From a virus, in the IMG/VR virus record IMGVR_UViG_3300030390_001591, positions 1 to 53,433 of that record: a stretch of 53,433 nt of DNA; one strand, given 5' to 3'. Under the pieces are notes generated by a model, which saw only the letters and a list, made by a program, of their open reading frames with translations, had not been told where the DNA came from and did no database searches. Positions 30,651 to 47,840 of this stretch are shown one piece after another; the stretch's first letter is position 1, and every line of letters starts with the position of its first letter. The translations under genes and the position numbers were made by a program.

Positions 30651-31595
30651 ATGAATCTTGATAATGAATTTCTGTGGGTTGAAAAATATCGCCCACAAAC
30701 TATTGAACAAACTATCCTACCTTCTGAATTAAAATCAACATTTTTAGAAATTGTCAAGACCGGTGAACTTCCAAACATGTTATTTACAGGAAGTGCCGGC
30801 CTAGGCAAAACTACTGTTGCAAAAGCTTTATGTAATTCTCTTGACTTAGATTACATTTTAGTGAATGGTTCTGAAGAAGGTAACATTGATACCCTCCGCG
30901 GTAAAATCAAACAATTTGCTTCATCATTATCTTTACAGGGTGGCTACAAAGTAGTCATCCTGGATGAAGCTGATTACTTAAACGCTCAATCAACTCAACC
31001 GGCTTTAAGAGCCTTTATTGAAGAGTTTTCTAACAATTGCCGGTTTATCTTAACCTGTAATTTTAAAAATCGTATTATTGAACCACTTCATTCTCGATGT
31101 GGTGTATATGAATTTAACACTTCAAAGAAAGATCTAAGTGAATTAGCTAAAGATTTTTTTAGACATGCTCGCAATATTCTTGAACAAGAAAATATTACAT
31201 ATGATCCAAAAGATCTTGTTAATATAATTATGAAACATGCTCCAGATTGGAGGAGAGTCTTAAATGAACTTCAAAGACGATCAGTGGGTGGTAGTTTTAG
31301 TAGTAGTGGTTCTTCTAGTTCTGCTAATAATGAAATTGATGCACTTATAAAATATATTAAAGAAAAAGATTTTAAACAAATGAGAAGCTGGGTTGTCAAT
31401 AATATTGACACCGATGCCTCGGCTATTTTTCGTGGAATATATGACCGTATGAATAGTCATATGAAACCAGCCTCTGTACCACAGGTTGTTCTTATTCTTG
31501 CAGACTATCAATATAAACATGCTTTTGTTGCTGATCATGAATTAAATGTGGTAGCATGTATGACAGAGCTAATGGCTAATGTGGAGTTCCAATAA
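30651..31595 (+). CDS. gp44: Clamp loader ATPase gp44
   Basis: This 314-residue AAA+ clamp loader subunit (T4 gp44 319 aa) opens gp45 with gp62. Motifs: LWVEKYRPQTIEQTILP at the start, Walker A FTGSAGLGKTT (about residues 45-55), Walker B VVILDEADYL (about 102-111) and sensor 2 region DWRRVLNELQRRS. A Ser-rich linker (SFSSSGSSSSANN, about 214-226) joins the C-terminal collar domain. It overlaps dexA by one base. Confidence 0.95.
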   Translation: MNLDNEFLWVEKYRPQTIEQTILPSELKSTFLEIVKTGELPNMLFTGSAGLGKTTVAKALCNSLDLDYILVNGSEEGNIDTLRGKIKQFASSLSLQGGYKVVILDEADYLNAQSTQPALRAFIEEFSNNCRFILTCNFKNRIIEPLHSRCGVYEFNTSKKDLSELAKDFFRHARNILEQENITYDPKDLVNIIMKHAPDWRRVLNELQRRSVGGSFSSSGSSSSANNEIDALIKYIKEKDFKQMRSWVVNNIDTDASAIFRGIYDRMNSHMKPASVPQVVLILADYQYKHAFVADHELNVVACMTELMANVEFQ

Positions 31596-41513: not shown

Positions 41514-41973
41514 AGATATAAATTTGATAGAACTCTTGGCAAAAGCAAAGGCTGAGAGTCAACTTATTTTTGACAAAGAGTCTACTCGAAAGGGTAGAAC
41601 TCTTAATGATATTACTGTTACTAATATGTACGGTCTTGCGGCTGAACAGTTTCTTATTGAAAAATGTAATTTCACCGATAATCCTTTACCATATCAGGAT
41701 GTAATATCTCCAGAAGGTATTGATGTTGAAGTAAAGGTGACGAAGGTTTTTAATTACATTCCCGATGTATTACGTCGTTTGAAAGAAAAGCGGAAAAAGT
41801 ACCCTAGTTTATATCAGCCTGATTGGGTTTTCATATATACCAATAATAAAAAAACCCGCGAATACGTATTTGCTGGCACATACAAATGGAATGGTAACAC
41901 ATATGTTACTAAAGATTGGTCTTTAGAAATTGATAGAGAATTTCTTGCTAACTATGGAGGAGCAAATAATTGA
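41494..41973 (+). CDS. Possible PD-(D/E)xK-type nuclease
   Basis: This 159-residue protein contains GIDVEVKVTKVF (about residues 74-85), which fits the D...ExK core of restriction-like nucleases, and GLAAEQFLIEKCNF (about 47-60), a helix with a typical acidic residue. A later segment, QPDWVFIYTNNK, resembles the second strand of such folds. It overlaps its neighbours by 20 and 4 bases. No family name is certain; the target (DNA, modified DNA or RNA) is unknown. Confidence 0.45.
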   Translation: MRSFSLKDINLIELLAKAKAESQLIFDKESTRKGRTLNDITVTNMYGLAAEQFLIEKCNFTDNPLPYQDVISPEGIDVEVKVTKVFNYIPDVLRRLKEKRKKYPSLYQPDWVFIYTNNKKTREYVFAGTYKWNGNTYVTKDWSLEIDREFLANYGGANN

Positions 41974-42329
41974 AATCTGGAAAAGTCTGGGGAATGACTG
42001 AACTTATTGAAGCTAATGGTACTTTAGAATTTCATCGTATTGAAATGGAAGCTACAGGAGTATGTTCAAAACATCTTCATGAATATAAATGGAATGGCTT
42101 TTATATTGAGTCAGGTATAATGCTTGTACGCGTATGGCAAAATGATTACGATTTAATTGATGAAACTGTTTTACAAGCCGGTGAATATACCAAAGTTAAA
42201 CCAGGTGTTTATCATCAATTTGAATGTATTGAACCTGGTGTAGCTTTTGAGTTATATTGGGCTGAGTTTAACCACAACGATATCATAAGAGAAACTGTAG
42301 GGAGATCAGACAATGAGGGAATTTATTAA
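41970..42329 (+). CDS. Cupin-fold protein
   Basis: This 119-residue protein has the two cupin motifs: SKHLHEYKWNGFYIESG (metal-binding His pair) and KPGVYHQFECIEPGVAFELY. Such short cupins include sugar isomerases and epimerases and other metal-binding proteins. The start is TTG at 41970, seven bases after GGAGGAG and overlapping the preceding stop codon. It could act on nucleotide sugars made by neighbouring genes, but no substrate is visible. Confidence 0.7.
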   Translation: MKSGKVWGMTELIEANGTLEFHRIEMEATGVCSKHLHEYKWNGFYIESGIMLVRVWQNDYDLIDETVLQAGEYTKVKPGVYHQFECIEPGVAFELYWAEFNHNDIIRETVGRSDNEGIY

Positions 42330-42618
42330 TGATGCTTGGAACAGCGTCATGGATGCAAATATTAATCCTTTAAAGAATATACCCAATCTTCAAGTTAGAC
42401 ATTTGATTATGCAAATACTGGCTTGGATGTGGGTTTCCGTGTGCTCTATGTACATAGGAAGTATTATGTTTTGGGGTATTAATGCAATTGTTCATACATT
42501 ATTATTAGCAGCAATTGTGATTACAGTCGGCACATTTGATACTGCAAAGCGCAATCCTAAACTTTTCAATAGAATTGACGGGTATAATGGCCGCAGAAAT
42601 AATGGAGAACACGACTAG
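42313..42618 (+). CDS. Small membrane protein
   Basis: This 101-residue protein has two hydrophobic segments, about residues 32-55 (LIMQILAWMWVSVCSMYIGS) and 54-73 (IMFWGINAIVHTLLLAAIVI), followed by a hydrophilic tail (RNPKLFNRIDGYNGRRNNGE). It is probably an inner membrane protein. It overlaps the cupin gene by 17 bases and ends at the base where the next gene starts. No family known to me. Confidence 0.65.
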   Translation: MREFINDAWNSVMDANINPLKNIPNLQVRHLIMQILAWMWVSVCSMYIGSIMFWGINAIVHTLLLAAIVITVGTFDTAKRNPKLFNRIDGYNGRRNNGEHD

Positions 42619-43025
42619 TGAAAATAGGATTTACTTGTAGTACTTTTGATTTACTTCATGCTGGACATGTATCTATGCTCAGAGAAGCAAAGTCGCAATG
42701 CGACTATTTGATTTGTGGTCTGCAAGTAAATCCTAATGTTGATCGTAAAGAAAAGAACTCTCCAATACAAAATATTGTGGAAAGGCAAGTACAGCTTTCC
42801 GCAATAAAATATGTTGATGAGGTCATTATTTATTGTACAGAAGCCGATTTACTTGATATAATAAACATGTATCCAATTAATGTTAGGATACTTGGTGAAG
42901 AGTACAGAAGCAAGGATTTTACCGGTAAAGATGAATGCCGTAACCGTGGAATTGATTTGTATTTTAACAAACGTGATCATCGCTTTTCAACTAGCGATCT
43001 AAGAAAGAGAGTATGCGAACAATGA
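42618..43025 (+). CDS. Glycerol-3-phosphate cytidylyltransferase-like nucleotidyltransferase
   Basis: This 135-residue protein belongs to the cytidylyltransferase family (TagD-like, about 130 aa). FTCSTFDLLHAGHVSMLREA contains the HxGH catalytic motif (residues 14-17, HAGH), and the C-terminal HRFSTSDLRKRV corresponds to the ISTSxLR nucleotide-binding motif. TagD makes CDP-glycerol from glycerol-3-phosphate; related enzymes use other phosphates. The start is a GTG at 42618. The true substrate is unknown. Confidence 0.8.
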   Translation: MKIGFTCSTFDLLHAGHVSMLREAKSQCDYLICGLQVNPNVDRKEKNSPIQNIVERQVQLSAIKYVDEVIIYCTEADLLDIINMYPINVRILGEEYRSKDFTGKDECRNRGIDLYFNKRDHRFSTSDLRKRVCEQ

Positions 43026-43711
43026 AAATGAATTCAATATTAGATATTCGTCAATACTTTGTTGATGAACTAAATAGTGAGTCATATACTATTGATAAAA
43101 CTGGCGCACGAACTATTGAGTTAATCGGTGCTTCATTTAAAGCTGATGCTCCATCGATTTTTGGCACGCCATCACACTCTTATATTCGAAAAGAATTAGA
43201 TTGGTATGAAAGCCAATCAACTAATATCTTTGATATTAATAAAGAGTCTGGTGGAGATGCTCCAGCTGCTTGGAAATATGCGGCTAACACTCATGGTGAA
43301 ATTAATTCAAACTATGGACATCTAATCTATGCTAATAAATATTTTGATCAATATCAAAATGCATTATCTGAATTAGATAAAAATCCTGATGGTAGACGTG
43401 CTTCTATGATCTACAATCGGCCTTCAATTTGGGTGGAGTTTAACGAAAATGGAAAATCTGATTTCATTTGTACTAACGCTGTCACTTACTATATTCGTGA
43501 TAATTTACTTCATTGTGTAGTCCAAATGCGGTCTAATGATGTAGTATTTGGCTATAAGAATGATTATGCTTGGCAACGACATGTCCAAAATAAATTAGTA
43601 GAAGATTTAAATAATATCTATAGAGTTAAAGATCCGGTTATTGCTGGCACAATGATATGGCAATGCCAAAATCTTCACGTATATGAAAGGCATTTTAATC
43701 TTGTTACATAA
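43022..43711 (+). CDS. gp42: dCMP hydroxymethylase (gp42-like)
   Basis: This 229-residue protein is closely similar to T4 gp42, which makes 5-hydroxymethyl-dCMP from dCMP and methylene-tetrahydrofolate. TGARTIELIGASFKAD, GEINSNYG, GRRASMIYNRPS, the catalytic ICTNA (Cys150, T4 Cys148) and MRSNDVVFGYKNDYAW are conserved. Asp181 corresponds to T4 Asp179 (an Asn in thymidylate synthase), which sets dCMP specificity. The start at 43022 forms an ATGA overlap with the previous gene; an in-frame ATG at 43013 is possible. The enzyme implies hydroxymethylcytosine in the phage DNA. Confidence 0.88.
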   Translation: MKMNSILDIRQYFVDELNSESYTIDKTGARTIELIGASFKADAPSIFGTPSHSYIRKELDWYESQSTNIFDINKESGGDAPAAWKYAANTHGEINSNYGHLIYANKYFDQYQNALSELDKNPDGRRASMIYNRPSIWVEFNENGKSDFICTNAVTYYIRDNLLHCVVQMRSNDVVFGYKNDYAWQRHVQNKLVEDLNNIYRVKDPVIAGTMIWQCQNLHVYERHFNLVT

Positions 43712-44162
43712 TACTGATCGTCAACATAAATGGGATCTAAGATATTTAGAGCTGGCTAAAACTATTGCTGGATGGTCTAAAGATCCTTCAAGTCAGATCG
43801 GAGCTATTGCTGTAGGTTCAAAGGGACAAGTCTTAGCTCAAGGATATAATGGATTTCCACGTGGTATGGTTGACAGCACTAACTTGTATGAAAATCGAGA
43901 AGAAAAATATGCTCGAATTGTTCATGCTGAAATGAATATGATTTACAATGCTTCATTCAATGGAGTATGTTTGAATAAATCTACTGTTTATGTCTCAGGT
44001 CTTCCTACTTGTTCGGATTGTGCCAAAGGTCTTATTCAGGTTGGTGTTACTGAACTGGTTATGCCACAACAAAAGATTGTTGAAAAATGGTATGACTCAT
44101 GGCAAAGATCTAAGTCATATTACAAAGAAGCTGGTCTTAAATACCGATGGGTAACAATATGA
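43683..44162 (+). CDS. cd: dCMP deaminase
   Basis: This 159-residue zinc enzyme (T4 Cd 193 aa) converts dCMP to dUMP, which ThyX further down methylates to dTMP. The zinc ligands lie in HAEMNMI and PTCSDCAKGL. The N-terminal region KWDLRYLELAKTIAGWSKDP is typical. The ATG at 43683 lies inside gp42 (29-base overlap); a TTG at 43701 after GAAAGG is an alternative start giving 153 residues. It competes with gp42 for dCMP and so sets the C/T balance. Confidence 0.9.
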   Translation: MKGILILLHNTDRQHKWDLRYLELAKTIAGWSKDPSSQIGAIAVGSKGQVLAQGYNGFPRGMVDSTNLYENREEKYARIVHAEMNMIYNASFNGVCLNKSTVYVSGLPTCSDCAKGLIQVGVTELVMPQQKIVEKWYDSWQRSKSYYKEAGLKYRWVTI

Positions 44163-45127
44163 AAGTCATAACAAATCCTATTAATAATATCCCAGTAAAT
44201 GCCAAATCACATACTCTTGGTTGGGCTCAACTTTGGCGAGATCAACTTGGCGCTTACATAGATAATAAATGCACGCCAAATGTTAGAAAAGCTAGTACTG
44301 TTTATATTGATCATGGAGCTAACTTTGGGGGAACGTTAAATCTATTTGGCGGTGCCAATAAAGAAGTTTATGATAAGTTGAATATAATTGCATCGTGTAA
44401 AGATGTAGTCTCACTTGATTGGGACATGCCTGATTATGGAGCTATGTTAAAGAAAAGACTGAGTGCTAAGACTACATACGAAGGAATTACTGAAGACTGG
44501 TGTGATTTACTATCTAAAAGGTTTAAAAATGTTAAATCACTTAAACAACAAGAATTGGATTTAAATAATGTCATTGTCGGAGATAGCCATACTTTGTCTT
44601 TTTGCGATCGGGGTGATATGGTGTTTCGTAATGATGGTAAAACTCTTCATGGCGCTCTTAAAGCCGGCCTTTCTAGTCTTATTCGTGATAATAATATACG
44701 CTATAACCGTATCACTTTCTGTTTAGGATCTATTGATATTCGTCATCATTTATTACGACATGAATTAAATATTGACGTTTTAATAGATTCTTATTATGAG
44801 CAAGCTATGAAATATAGTAGTGATTCAACAGATGTTTGGTTTACTGCTCCAGTACCAGTAGAATTTGAGGGTCGACGCATTCCTAAATCTGGCTTTTTTA
44901 AAAAAGAACCGTTTTACGGTAGCTGCGAACAGCGTAGAGATGTTACAGATATGTTTATAGCAGCTTTGCATAAACGAACTAGTAATGTTGTACAACCACC
45001 AGCTGATTGGTATAGCATGGATTCTCAAAAATATGCTGAAACTTATATGGAGCATGGTAGTAGTTTTCATATAGCTCCACCATTTTATAGAAAAAACAAT
45101 TGGGGAGCGACAGTTTTTGCCACATAA
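44159..45127 (+). CDS. SGNH-hydrolase-like protein (GDSH motif)
   Basis: This 322-residue protein carries VIVGDSHTLSF (GDSH at 141-144) and FCLGSIDIRHHLLRHE (190-197), which fit block I and block III motifs of SGNH-type hydrolases and esterases. A possible third block is MEHGSSFHIAPP near the C-terminus. Related proteins transfer or remove acyl groups on sugars, but the substrate here is unknown. The ATG at 44159 overlaps the dCMP deaminase stop codon (ATGA). It lies in the middle of the modification operon and may act on a modified nucleotide or sugar. Confidence 0.5.
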   Translation: MKVITNPINNIPVNAKSHTLGWAQLWRDQLGAYIDNKCTPNVRKASTVYIDHGANFGGTLNLFGGANKEVYDKLNIIASCKDVVSLDWDMPDYGAMLKKRLSAKTTYEGITEDWCDLLSKRFKNVKSLKQQELDLNNVIVGDSHTLSFCDRGDMVFRNDGKTLHGALKAGLSSLIRDNNIRYNRITFCLGSIDIRHHLLRHELNIDVLIDSYYEQAMKYSSDSTDVWFTAPVPVEFEGRRIPKSGFFKKEPFYGSCEQRRDVTDMFIAALHKRTSNVVQPPADWYSMDSQKYAETYMEHGSSFHIAPPFYRKNNWGATVFAT

Positions 45128-46016
45128 TAATCACGTAGTTGACTTAATCAATAAAGACTATCCTTTCCCTTGGAGTAGTCCCGAGGATACTAAGGAACAT
45201 TATTTAGAATTAGCTAAGGATTGGGAAGATCCTTATGGCCCTCCTGTTATTAAAAAGCATGAGGGCATTCGTGTTGTTAGAGATGACTACTTAGTCGGTA
45301 GTAAGGTTCGAGGTGGGGACTGTCTTATATCTTCTTTACCGAAAAATATAGACACTATTGTTTATGTTCAACCACGGACTGGATTAGCTGGGGTGAGTAT
45401 TCTTGATGTAGCAAAAAGACACAATTTAAAAGTTAAACTCTTTATGCCTTCATCGAAAAAAATATCACCGCATCAGGCTTGTTGTATTGAACGCGGAGCA
45501 ATAGTAGAATTTCATAGAATTGCTGCTATGCCTAATTTAAATGCCATTGCAAAGAAATGGTCTGACGAGCGATCTAATTGTTTCTTTGTTCCACTCGGAT
45601 TAAAGCATGAATTAGTCACAGCCGGAATCGTTAAAGTTGCGTCAAAGATCGATCCACCTGACGAGGTTTATACTGCCACGTCCACGGGCGTGCTCACACG
45701 GGGGCTTCAAATTGCTTGGCCAAATGCTAAGTTTACATCAGTTTGTGTGTCAAGAAATATGAAAGCCGGAGAGCTTGGCATTGCTGAGGCAATATCCGAG
45801 CCATTAGCATTTACTGCCTCTGAGAAAAAAGATAAGCTTCCACCATTTCCTAATATAAGTACTTATGATGGAAAAGCCTGGAAGTACATTCCAAAGAATT
45901 CAAACAAAGATATTTTATTTTGGAATGTAGGTGCTGAACCACCACTAAGCCGTTGGGCTATTATCGATGAAACAAATTCTTATAAGAAGTGGCCAAAAGA
46001 TGAGCTGGTTGAATGA
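45117..46016 (+). CDS. Fold-type II PLP-dependent enzyme-like protein
   Basis: This 299-residue protein resembles tryptophan-synthase-beta or ACC-deaminase-type PLP enzymes. VRDDYLVGSKVRGGD (about residues 54-68) matches the RDDYLxGGNKxR motif with the PLP lysine. The next segment (TGLAGVSILDVAKRHNLKVK, then CIERGAIVEF) has the alternating alpha/beta pattern of the small domain, and ATSTGVLTRGLQIAWP fits the glycine-rich phosphate loop. The start is TTG at 45117, nine bases after GGGGAG. In phages with hypermodified DNA, PLP enzymes act on amino-acid-decorated bases, which makes the context interesting. Confidence 0.6.
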   Translation: MPHNNHVVDLINKDYPFPWSSPEDTKEHYLELAKDWEDPYGPPVIKKHEGIRVVRDDYLVGSKVRGGDCLISSLPKNIDTIVYVQPRTGLAGVSILDVAKRHNLKVKLFMPSSKKISPHQACCIERGAIVEFHRIAAMPNLNAIAKKWSDERSNCFFVPLGLKHELVTAGIVKVASKIDPPDEVYTATSTGVLTRGLQIAWPNAKFTSVCVSRNMKAGELGIAEAISEPLAFTASEKKDKLPPFPNISTYDGKAWKYIPKNSNKDILFWNVGAEPPLSRWAIIDETNSYKKWPKDELVE

Positions 46017-47019
46017 AGAAGCCCTAGACATTTTTGTCGACTACTATTATCCAAAAGCAAAGTGGTTGCAAAATAATGTTAATTGGGGTCCATTAGATTA
46101 TGAAGGACCAGAAGCTGCAAAAGCTATTGATGATCCTTTAATGCAAAAGATTGACATATATGACTGCTTTACTCGTAATGCAGCAGGATTTTCTAATGTA
46201 CTTCAGGATCTTAGATTTGGATCTAAAACTCCAAAATGGAGATGGCAGGATAAAGATCGAAGAGAATTGAATACTAAAAATGATTTGATTAAGTGGGATA
46301 CAAAAACTTGGATGTATGTGTTCCTAAGTCATCGGGTTACAGGGTCTGGAGCTTCATTTGAAAGTGATCATGGATATAGAAATAATATTATTCAACACTG
46401 GGGAAAGCATCGAGATATTAAAGATATGGCCGAGGACTTGGTAAGCTTTAAAGCTACTGGTAAACCTCTTTTTACATCAATCGGCAATCAACCACCTGCT
46501 CCAAAAAAGGGAGTATCAAACGTAGATTTCCTTTCTAAAGAGCTTCCCGAAGTTATAGATAGATTAGGTGACTGGCTTGTACAGCGCAAAAGAGGACACA
46601 AAGAAATTGTAGACTTTTTAAATGTTTATAACAAGTCTGCCGGTCATAGAAAATTCAATTTCCAATACGCAGCCTTTTCAATGGATTGTTCTGATTACTT
46701 TCCAGAACACGTTGATGTTGATAGCCATACATACTTAGGTAATAATGCAGTTCGATGCATGAAGAAATTATCTGGGGGTTGGAAACCAGATAATTTTATG
46801 GATTTATTGAGAGAAAAAACGGGTGGAAAACCAAAAGATTTAGAAGATGTAATGTGTGACTTTGTGCGGTTTGGACAAAATTATGTTCCTCGAGGAAACG
46901 GAACCTTCGATCATATACCATCAACGTTAGCAAATAATTCGAGGTGGCATTCTGGCTGGGAACAACGGCAAGGTGTGCCACCTCAAAAAGGTATACAATT
47001 AGAGGATTTTATGGTATAA
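46000..47019 (+). CDS. aGPT-Pplase / amino acid:DNA transferase-like protein
   Basis: This 339-residue protein shows patterns of the alpha-glutamyl/putrescinyl thymine pyrophosphorylase superfamily, which includes 5-hmU DNA kinases and amino acid:DNA transferases of hypermodifying phages. Evidence by eye: DDPLMQKIDIYDCFTRN (44-60, compare the family's TDDPILxxYrFxNvyR), FNFQYAAFSMDCSDYFPEHV (219-238) with a Gly/Asn loop, and LEDVMCDFVRFGQNY (281-295, compare LEHxLCEFDKYxR). It starts in the last 17 bases of the PLP gene. If right, it would act on hydroxymethylated DNA. A profile search is needed. Confidence 0.5.
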   Translation: MSWLNEEALDIFVDYYYPKAKWLQNNVNWGPLDYEGPEAAKAIDDPLMQKIDIYDCFTRNAAGFSNVLQDLRFGSKTPKWRWQDKDRRELNTKNDLIKWDTKTWMYVFLSHRVTGSGASFESDHGYRNNIIQHWGKHRDIKDMAEDLVSFKATGKPLFTSIGNQPPAPKKGVSNVDFLSKELPEVIDRLGDWLVQRKRGHKEIVDFLNVYNKSAGHRKFNFQYAAFSMDCSDYFPEHVDVDSHTYLGNNAVRCMKKLSGGWKPDNFMDLLREKTGGKPKDLEDVMCDFVRFGQNYVPRGNGTFDHIPSTLANNSRWHSGWEQRQGVPPQKGIQLEDFMV

Positions 47020-47840
47020 TGACTAAGAAATTAAAAATATCCGTGATCGGCTGTGGGTTTGTAGGCACAGCTGTTATTAATGGTTTTAATAAAACACTAT
47101 GTGATATTGCACCAATCGATATCAAATACAGTACTACAGTATCAGACACTGATTCATTTTGTGATGTATTTTTTGTATGTTTACCTACACCCATGAATAA
47201 TGATGGATCTGTTAATGCTGCACTTGTAATTGAAACTGTTAAATGGTTAACGCTTAATAGGGCTGGACATATTGTAATAAAATCAACAGTCACGCCTGAT
47301 ATTATAGATAAACTTTCTGGTGATAGGGTAGTTTATAATCCAGAATTTTTAAATGAAGTATCTGCTAACGAAGACTTCATTAATCCACCAATGCATATAT
47401 TTGGCGGGCATATTAAAGACACAAATAATATTGAGAAAATATATAAAAAATATAGTAAATGTAAACCTTGCCCATGCCACCATGTGACATTAAAAGAAGC
47501 AAGTTTTATTAAATATGGAATCAATTGTTTCCTTGCTACAAAAGTATTATGGTTCAATCAATTCTATAATATAATACAAAAACATGATTGTAATTTTGAT
47601 GAGATTACTTATGCAATGAGATCAGATCCAAGGATTGGTAATTCTCATACAAGTGTTCCAGGATTTGATGGCAAAATGGGTTTTGGTGGAGCCTGTTTTC
47701 CAAAAGACACTTCAGCATTTTTAGATTTTGCAATCTCGTTTTCAGTCCTAGATGAGGTAATACAAGCAAATAATAAGATTAGATCTGAATATACGAAAGA
47801 TAAAAGAGAGCTTGAACAAAATGTCTCTTTTAGTAAATAA
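47019..47840 (+). CDS. UDP-glucose/GDP-mannose 6-dehydrogenase-family protein
   Basis: This 273-residue protein resembles nucleotide-sugar dehydrogenases, which oxidise UDP-glucose or GDP-mannose to the uronic acid. Present are the Rossmann motif VIGCGFVGTAV (9-19), VCLPTPMNNDGS, VIKSTVTPD, YNPEFLNE, the catalytic Lys in SFIKYGINCF and the catalytic Cys in GFGGACFPKD. Typical enzymes have about 390-450 residues; the third domain is largely missing. Short phage versions are known to me. The ATG overlaps the preceding stop codon by one base. With the phosphomannomutase it hints at a nucleotide-sugar route. Confidence 0.75.
   Translation: MTKKLKISVIGCGFVGTAVINGFNKTLCDIAPIDIKYSTTVSDTDSFCDVFFVCLPTPMNNDGSVNAALVIETVKWLTLNRAGHIVIKSTVTPDIIDKLSGDRVVYNPEFLNEVSANEDFINPPMHIFGGHIKDTNNIEKIYKKYSKCKPCPCHHVTLKEASFIKYGINCFLATKVLWFNQFYNIIQKHDCNFDEITYAMRSDPRIGNSHTSVPGFDGKMGFGGACFPKDTSAFLDFAISFSVLDEVIQANNKIRSEYTKDKRELEQNVSFSK

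Follow-up and report, generated by a model that had tools for sequence, protein, structure and literature searches.

A Candidate Cytosine Hypermodification Cassette with an SGNH-Fold Protein in a Marine T4-Like Phage

Which base is made, and how is it decorated, by a phage locus in which a T4 gp42-type deoxycytidine monophosphate (dCMP) hydroxymethylase lies among genes resembling those of the thymidine hypermodification pathways? The question is raised by the IMG/VR virus record IMGVR_UViG_3300030390_001591, the whole analysed stretch of which, 53,433 nucleotides, is called the window here. It is a 53 kb fragment of a marine T4-like phage, with a B-family DNA polymerase, SbcCD-type gp46/47 and a clamp loader as markers, besides uvsX-like and gp41-like genes named by eye. 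Six overlapping genes had been claimed at 43022-47840 by a first-pass annotation made from the letters alone. All six are indeed present, overlapping and on the plus strand, in the order dCMP hydroxymethylase, dCMP deaminase, SGNH-fold protein, fold-type II pyridoxal phosphate (PLP) enzyme, transferase-like protein and sugar dehydrogenase, and uvsX lies directly downstream of the set.

To our knowledge, amino-acid-type base hypermodification has so far been known on 5-hydroxymethyluracil (hmU), that is on thymine-derived bases, only. Our analysis suggests, with a probability of about 0.62, that the locus is a DNA cytosine hypermodification cassette, in which a pathway of the amino acid:DNA transferase (AADT)/PLP type has moved from hmU to 5-hydroxymethylcytosine (hmC) and an SGNH protein takes the place of the expected DNA kinase.

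The Base and the Conserved Gene Set

The hydroxymethylase gene (43013-43711, plus strand) matches the phage hydroxymethylase profile phrog_160 at 6e-47 and the thymidylate synthase (TS) fold family PF00303 at 5.6e-14. In its motif GYKND an Asp occupies the position of Asn177 of TS; it is D181 when counted from the ATG at 43022 and D184 from the ATG at 43013. Asp in place of this Asn is the mark of dCMP specificity. The same Asp was found in all relatives' hydroxymethylases with a readable motif (112/112) and in gp42 of the Aeromonas phage 44RR, whereas the enzymes of ViI and M6-like phages, which serve hmU pathways, are without it. With its dCMP-type Asp the window enzyme is, therefore, not of the hmU-forming type. 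The earlier proposal of a cytosine-specific base maker had rested on Asp181 in the window, and the assignment of the cassette base to cytosine (hmC) rather than uracil is now strengthened at the level of sequence.

The linkage of this enzyme with its neighbours was followed in viral contigs, where the scans returned at least 132 relatives of the transferase-like protein (first scan) and at least 563 of the PLP enzyme. A total of 155 transferase-bearing loci were grouped by 95% nucleotide identity into 76 clusters, and in 39 of these enough flank was available. Each of the 39 has both the SGNH and the PLP gene; the hydroxymethylase occurs in 37, the deaminase in 34, the nucleotidyltransferase in 13, the dehydrogenase in 12 and the cupin in 10. 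The PLP count is biased upward, as part of the locus set was fetched with the PLP enzyme as query; the transferase-first scan gives the same linkage. Two gene orders were observed, hydroxymethylase-deaminase-SGNH-PLP-transferase and hydroxymethylase-transferase-PLP-SGNH, depending on the lineage, and this difference argues for a functional linkage and not for inherited order alone. Ka/Ks values against relatives, where computable, were 0.04-0.26 for the core genes (the hydroxymethylase value for relative L007, an alignment artefact, was left out), which means strong purifying selection. Taken together with the retention of the transferase in 76 distinct viral-metagenome loci, these values argue that the cassette is not a chance assembly. 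A GTDB scan yielded two contigs only, in a Rhodobacteraceae metagenome bin, which is a hint on the host and not evidence.

Only L180 and L194 depart from the hydroxymethylase linkage; both contigs have tail genes of siphophage type (by eye) and contain the SGNH-transferase-PLP trio. Several kb upstream of the trio, the L180 record also encodes an Asp-type TS homologue and a dCMP deaminase. Being of siphophage type and unrelated to the T4-like loci, L180 provides an independent genomic background for the association of the trio with an Asp-type hydroxymethylase.

The SGNH, PLP and Transferase-Like Proteins and Their Neighbours

The product of 44147-45127 (plus strand) has no Pfam match, and falls in phrog_13881/17781. 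It had been called SGNH-like, and structure prediction bears this out: the AlphaFold2 model has a mean predicted local distance difference test score (pLDDT) of 85.5, and GDSL esterases and acyltransferases dominate its high-probability Foldseek matches (probability 0.97-1.00, with E-values of only 6e-3 to 3e-2). The blocks read GDSH (Ser147), GSID (Asp197) and SSFH (His308). Among the relatives the GDS and the late His are conserved; block III is GSID or GNID and not GxND, and block V is SSxH and not DxxH.

The PLP enzyme (45117-46016, plus strand) matches phrog_7093 at 2.6e-32 and PF00291 (PALP) at 3.5e-4, the latter not reaching the family cutoff. Its candidate PLP lysine is K63 and its candidate phosphate loop is STGVL (189-193); K63 and S189-T190-G191 are invariant in the relatives. 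An M6-like Pseudomonas phage encodes a PLP protein with 91% identity to that of M6, and this protein matches phrog_7093 at 4.1e-155, so that the window enzyme and the thymidine-hypermodification PLP enzyme of M6 fall in the same PHROG. A shared C-terminal motif was also detected by BLASTP. The thymidine-modification cassette of the M6-like phage SN1 lists the PLP gene alongside those for aGPT-PPlase2, for a nucleotide kinase and for a radical SAM enzyme (PMC9476957). The claim of a fold-type II PLP enzyme thus stands, with a family that M6 has in common. Elsewhere, a PLP-enzyme relative of the Microcystis phage Mae-JY30 (L003:6381-8699) adjoins two ParB/sulfiredoxin genes, and Erythrobacter phages have a similar PLP region.

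For the transferase-like protein (45967-47019, plus strand; probable start ATG 46000) no match was obtained in Pfam, PHROG or NCBIfam, nor by tblastn in cultured phages; an invariant E293 and C297 lie in its C-terminal motif. Profiles of this protein, of the SGNH protein and of the PLP enzyme gave nothing useful against PDB sequences. In a Foldseek search of BFVD the AlphaFold2 model of the transferase-like protein matches uncultured-phage proteins at E-values of 1.4e-10 to 6e-10, with a query TM-score (TMq) of 0.65-0.70 and 26-30% identity. One of these bears the name amino acid:DNA transferase; next come aGPT-PPlase clade 1 proteins and helical domains of 5-hydroxymethyldeoxyuridine (5-hmdU) kinases. 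The best PDB matches, with weak E-values, are base-flipping 8-oxoguanine (AGOG) DNA glycosylases. By its modelled fold, the protein resembles a member of the AADT/HMUDK-helical superfamily, for which amino acid transfer itself is predicted; the likeness to amino acid:DNA transferases or 5-hmU DNA kinases, earlier seen by eye, is borne out at the level of fold, and the matches are not to an unrelated family. A PF18724 match in the record G000 (31113-31463) was discarded since it lies inside the clamp-loader gene and not in the transferase gene.

Cultured relatives of the SGNH protein were found in about 40 records of Aeromonas T4-like phages. In ORF233c of 44RR2.8t (795 aa) the SGNH domain is joined in one protein with a C-terminal domain whose PF18723 match, at 4e-4, is under the family cutoff, and phage 31, which like 44RR is cultured, also carries such an SGNH::transferase-like fusion. 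In phiAS4 the SGNH gene stands alone and adjoins UDP-galactopyranose mutase. There, the mutase, a protein that is glycosyltransferase-like by eye (phrog_14998) and the SGNH protein lie in a row (L004:5727-8999), which might mean furanose decoration of hmC. In the Tenacibaculum phage PTm1 the SGNH gene lies among ribonucleotide reductase genes, with no clear dCMP hydroxymethylase. The PTm1 region (L197:1320-9784) has an annotated intein in a ribonucleotide reductase subunit, a second intein-like insert by eye in the beta subunit, and the SGNH homologue between the subunit genes.

The remaining genes of the locus appear to be accessory or at least not core. The dCMP deaminase (43683-44162, plus strand; PF00383, phrog_174 at 3.6e-35) is frequent, and its position varies. 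The short nucleotide-sugar dehydrogenase (47019-47840, plus strand; PF03721/PF00984) has NAD-binding and central domains only, without a match to the C-terminal, UDP-binding domain; it has about 273 residues, and every relative read is of similar length (about 270-290 aa). It overlaps the transferase gene through TAATG, the listed GTG start at 46944 being a mechanical extension. Found in 12/39 loci, it was rejected as a core member. The coordinates of the set as first annotated were right; the set should, however, extend 5′ to a cytidylyltransferase-like nucleotidyltransferase (42618-43025, plus strand; phrog_7878, PF01467) and a cupin-fold protein (41970-42329, plus strand; phrog_7851, with PF07883 slightly under cutoff). 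Near the AADT gene of phage Cr30 there is a gene annotated as cysteine dioxygenase, which may be compared, by annotation only, with this cupin. What stood of the idea of one six-gene pathway is, consequently, the linkage of hydroxymethylase, SGNH, PLP and transferase genes, and not the membership of the dehydrogenase and the deaminase.

Some relatives carry further genes within the cassette. A protein of 218 residues, which has a Cys-His-Asp pattern and is transglutaminase- or papain-like by eye, occurs beside or instead of the PLP gene (L163:1043-1699, L164:1076-1732, L166:1251-1907), and in L164 it occupies the PLP slot. A protein of 328-330 residues, with a transferase-like C-terminal pattern by eye and no profile match, lies inside the cassette at L026:5223-6209 and L175:7194-8186. 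Some relatives have a gene for a class II aldolase (PF00596) between those for the PLP enzyme and the transferase (L118:8861-9481), and a small protein resembling the uracil-DNA glycosylase (UDG) superfamily is encoded within the cassette of several (L110:5773-6159, L118:6691-7065, L146:6695-7033); that of L110 matches PF03167 at 0.0014, under cutoff.

A Putative Route and Its Rivals

By analogy with M6 and ViI, the steps would likely run from hmC synthesis through incorporation and activation in DNA to amino acid transfer and PLP tailoring. The gp42-type enzyme would make hydroxymethyl-dCMP, which would enter the phage DNA as hmC. In DNA, the putatively base-flipping AADT-superfamily protein may work with the SGNH protein on the 5-hydroxymethyl group: the SGNH protein would most likely activate or acylate the hydroxyl, the transferase would attach an amino acid or a similar group, and the M6-type PLP enzyme might tailor the amino acid once attached, for instance by decarboxylation. 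What makes the SGNH protein the candidate for activation or acylation is that it always accompanies the transferase in these loci and that 44RR has it in one protein with a transferase-like domain. The modification would likely serve to shield the phage DNA from host restriction or other nucleases. In this full form, as a kinase-free route in which the SGNH protein activates or acylates, the AADT fold attaches and the M6-type PLP enzyme tailors, giving an amino-acid-type hypermodified cytosine that would be a base not described before, the proposal is tentative.

Several observations weigh against a cassette of this kind. PF18723 revealed no HMUDK-type DNA kinase in the window or in the possibly incomplete records G000-G003, the relatives G002 and G003 among them having 135-142 kb, so that the activation step of the hmU pathways is missing here; the absence is soft because PF18723 also misses the transferase itself. 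Indeed, neither PF18723 nor PF18724 matches the transferase in HMMER, and by those profiles alone the outcome for this protein would be negative. Its model is mediocre overall (pLDDT 66.5, with parts of the core >90), and hhalign against AADT and HMUDK-helical alignments was not significant, in a thin-alignment test that also fails between two accepted family members and is therefore uninformative. The SGNH gene is found without a detectable transferase in phiAS4 and PTm1, which means that it is not exclusive to the cassette. Finally, L167-L169 have no PLP gene in the slot, so the PLP enzyme is not essential. As that slot is empty or otherwise filled in some relatives, the SGNH protein and the transferase look like the core and the PLP enzyme like a tailoring step. 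The proposal of cytosine hypermodification holds, with the core redefined as hydroxymethylase, SGNH protein and transferase.

The architecture of HMUDK is a kinase fused to a helical domain. The SGNH::helical fusion of 44RR parallels it, and this parallel suits a rival in which the SGNH protein is the true hmC-modifying enzyme, an O-acyltransferase, with the AADT-like protein mainly as base-flipping partner and the PLP enzyme as supplier or editor of the acyl group. The SGNH-transferase pair would then be the minimal unit, as L167-L169 suggest; the SGNH gene is found alone in phiAS4, another hmC-type phage, and the fold matches include acyltransferases. Nevertheless, the SGNH protein diverges at catalytic block III (GSID, not GxND), and among the closest structural matches of the transferase there is, besides kinase helical domains, a protein that bears the name amino acid:DNA transferase. 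We regard this rival as unlikely.

Still less probable is a glycosylation of hmC with a sugar provided by the nucleotidyltransferase and the dehydrogenase, the SGNH protein editing that sugar and the transferase and PLP enzyme doing another job. These two sugar genes flank the core in the window, and the SGNH gene of phiAS4 adjoins the mutase and the protein that is glycosyltransferase-like by eye, but they occur in only 13/39 and 12/39 loci as against 39/39 for the SGNH, PLP and transferase genes. The dehydrogenase is without a UDP-binding-domain match, and T4 AGT and BGT profiles gave no match in six records, a weak negative, as the BGT control was itself silent and the window is a fragment. 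Very improbable, too, is a role of the transferase as DNA glycosylase or repair-type protein directed against host or unmodified DNA, with nucleotide-metabolism genes as coincidental neighbours. The weak AGOG matches in PDB and the UDG-like reading frame near it in some relatives would fit; the viral structural matches to AADT, aGPT-PPlase and HMUDK have far better E-values, and a repair role does not agree with the strict linkage with the SGNH gene and an M6-type PLP enzyme.

Comparison with Known Systems

The M6/ViI pathway consists of hydroxymethylase, DNA kinase, AADT and PLP enzyme (PMC6449724, PMC9476957). Like the Pseudomonas phages M6/SN1 (PMC9476957) and the Salmonella phage ViI, the window combines a pyrimidine hydroxymethylase, a protein of the AADT/aGPT-PPlase superfamily and a fold-II PLP enzyme, and the M6 PLP gene, of the same PHROG, adjoins aGPT-PPlase2. 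In M6 and ViI, however, the base is hmU, while the window has the Asp of hmC formation and not the dUMP-type residue. Two further enzymes of M6, a nucleotide/DNA kinase and a radical SAM enzyme, are not seen in the window cassette, and the SGNH protein of the window is new relative to M6. The open-access literature searched, which does not cover key subscription papers, yielded no account of a cytosine pathway of this kind. If the proposal is right, the hmU hypermodification toolkit may also work on hmC in abundant marine T4-like phages, and a new, bulky form of cytosine would be of consequence both for the resistance of phages to restriction and CRISPR and for cytosine-modification sequencing methods.

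With the hmC glycosylation of T4 and RB69 the window shares a gp42-type dCMP hydroxymethylase, a dCMP deaminase and a T4-like genome; T4 and RB69 use glucosyl- or arabinosyltransferase, and the window has AADT-like, SGNH and PLP genes instead. The base 5-glyceryl-methylcytosine is made from 5-methylcytosine and vitamin C by a TET-like enzyme. Described in Chlamydomonas (PMC12458080), it is likewise a complex substituent on the 5-methyl of cytosine, made by unrelated genes.

The closest cultured comparison is with Aeromonas 44RR2.8t and 31 (Biquartavirus), which like the window have gene 42 (Asp-type in 44RR), no known glucosyltransferase, and an SGNH protein with a PF18723-like helical domain. 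Unlike the window, 44RR has no detected PALP gene, and its transferase-like domain comes from another branch. Petrov et al. (PMC2993671), in the 2010 review of T4 relatives, listed 44RR, 31 and 25 as gene-42 phages without glucosyltransferases and left open other hmC modifications in such phages. The present proposal bears on their question of what, if anything, replaces glucose on hmC in these three, two of which, 44RR and 31, are available in culture and have the SGNH::transferase-like fusion.

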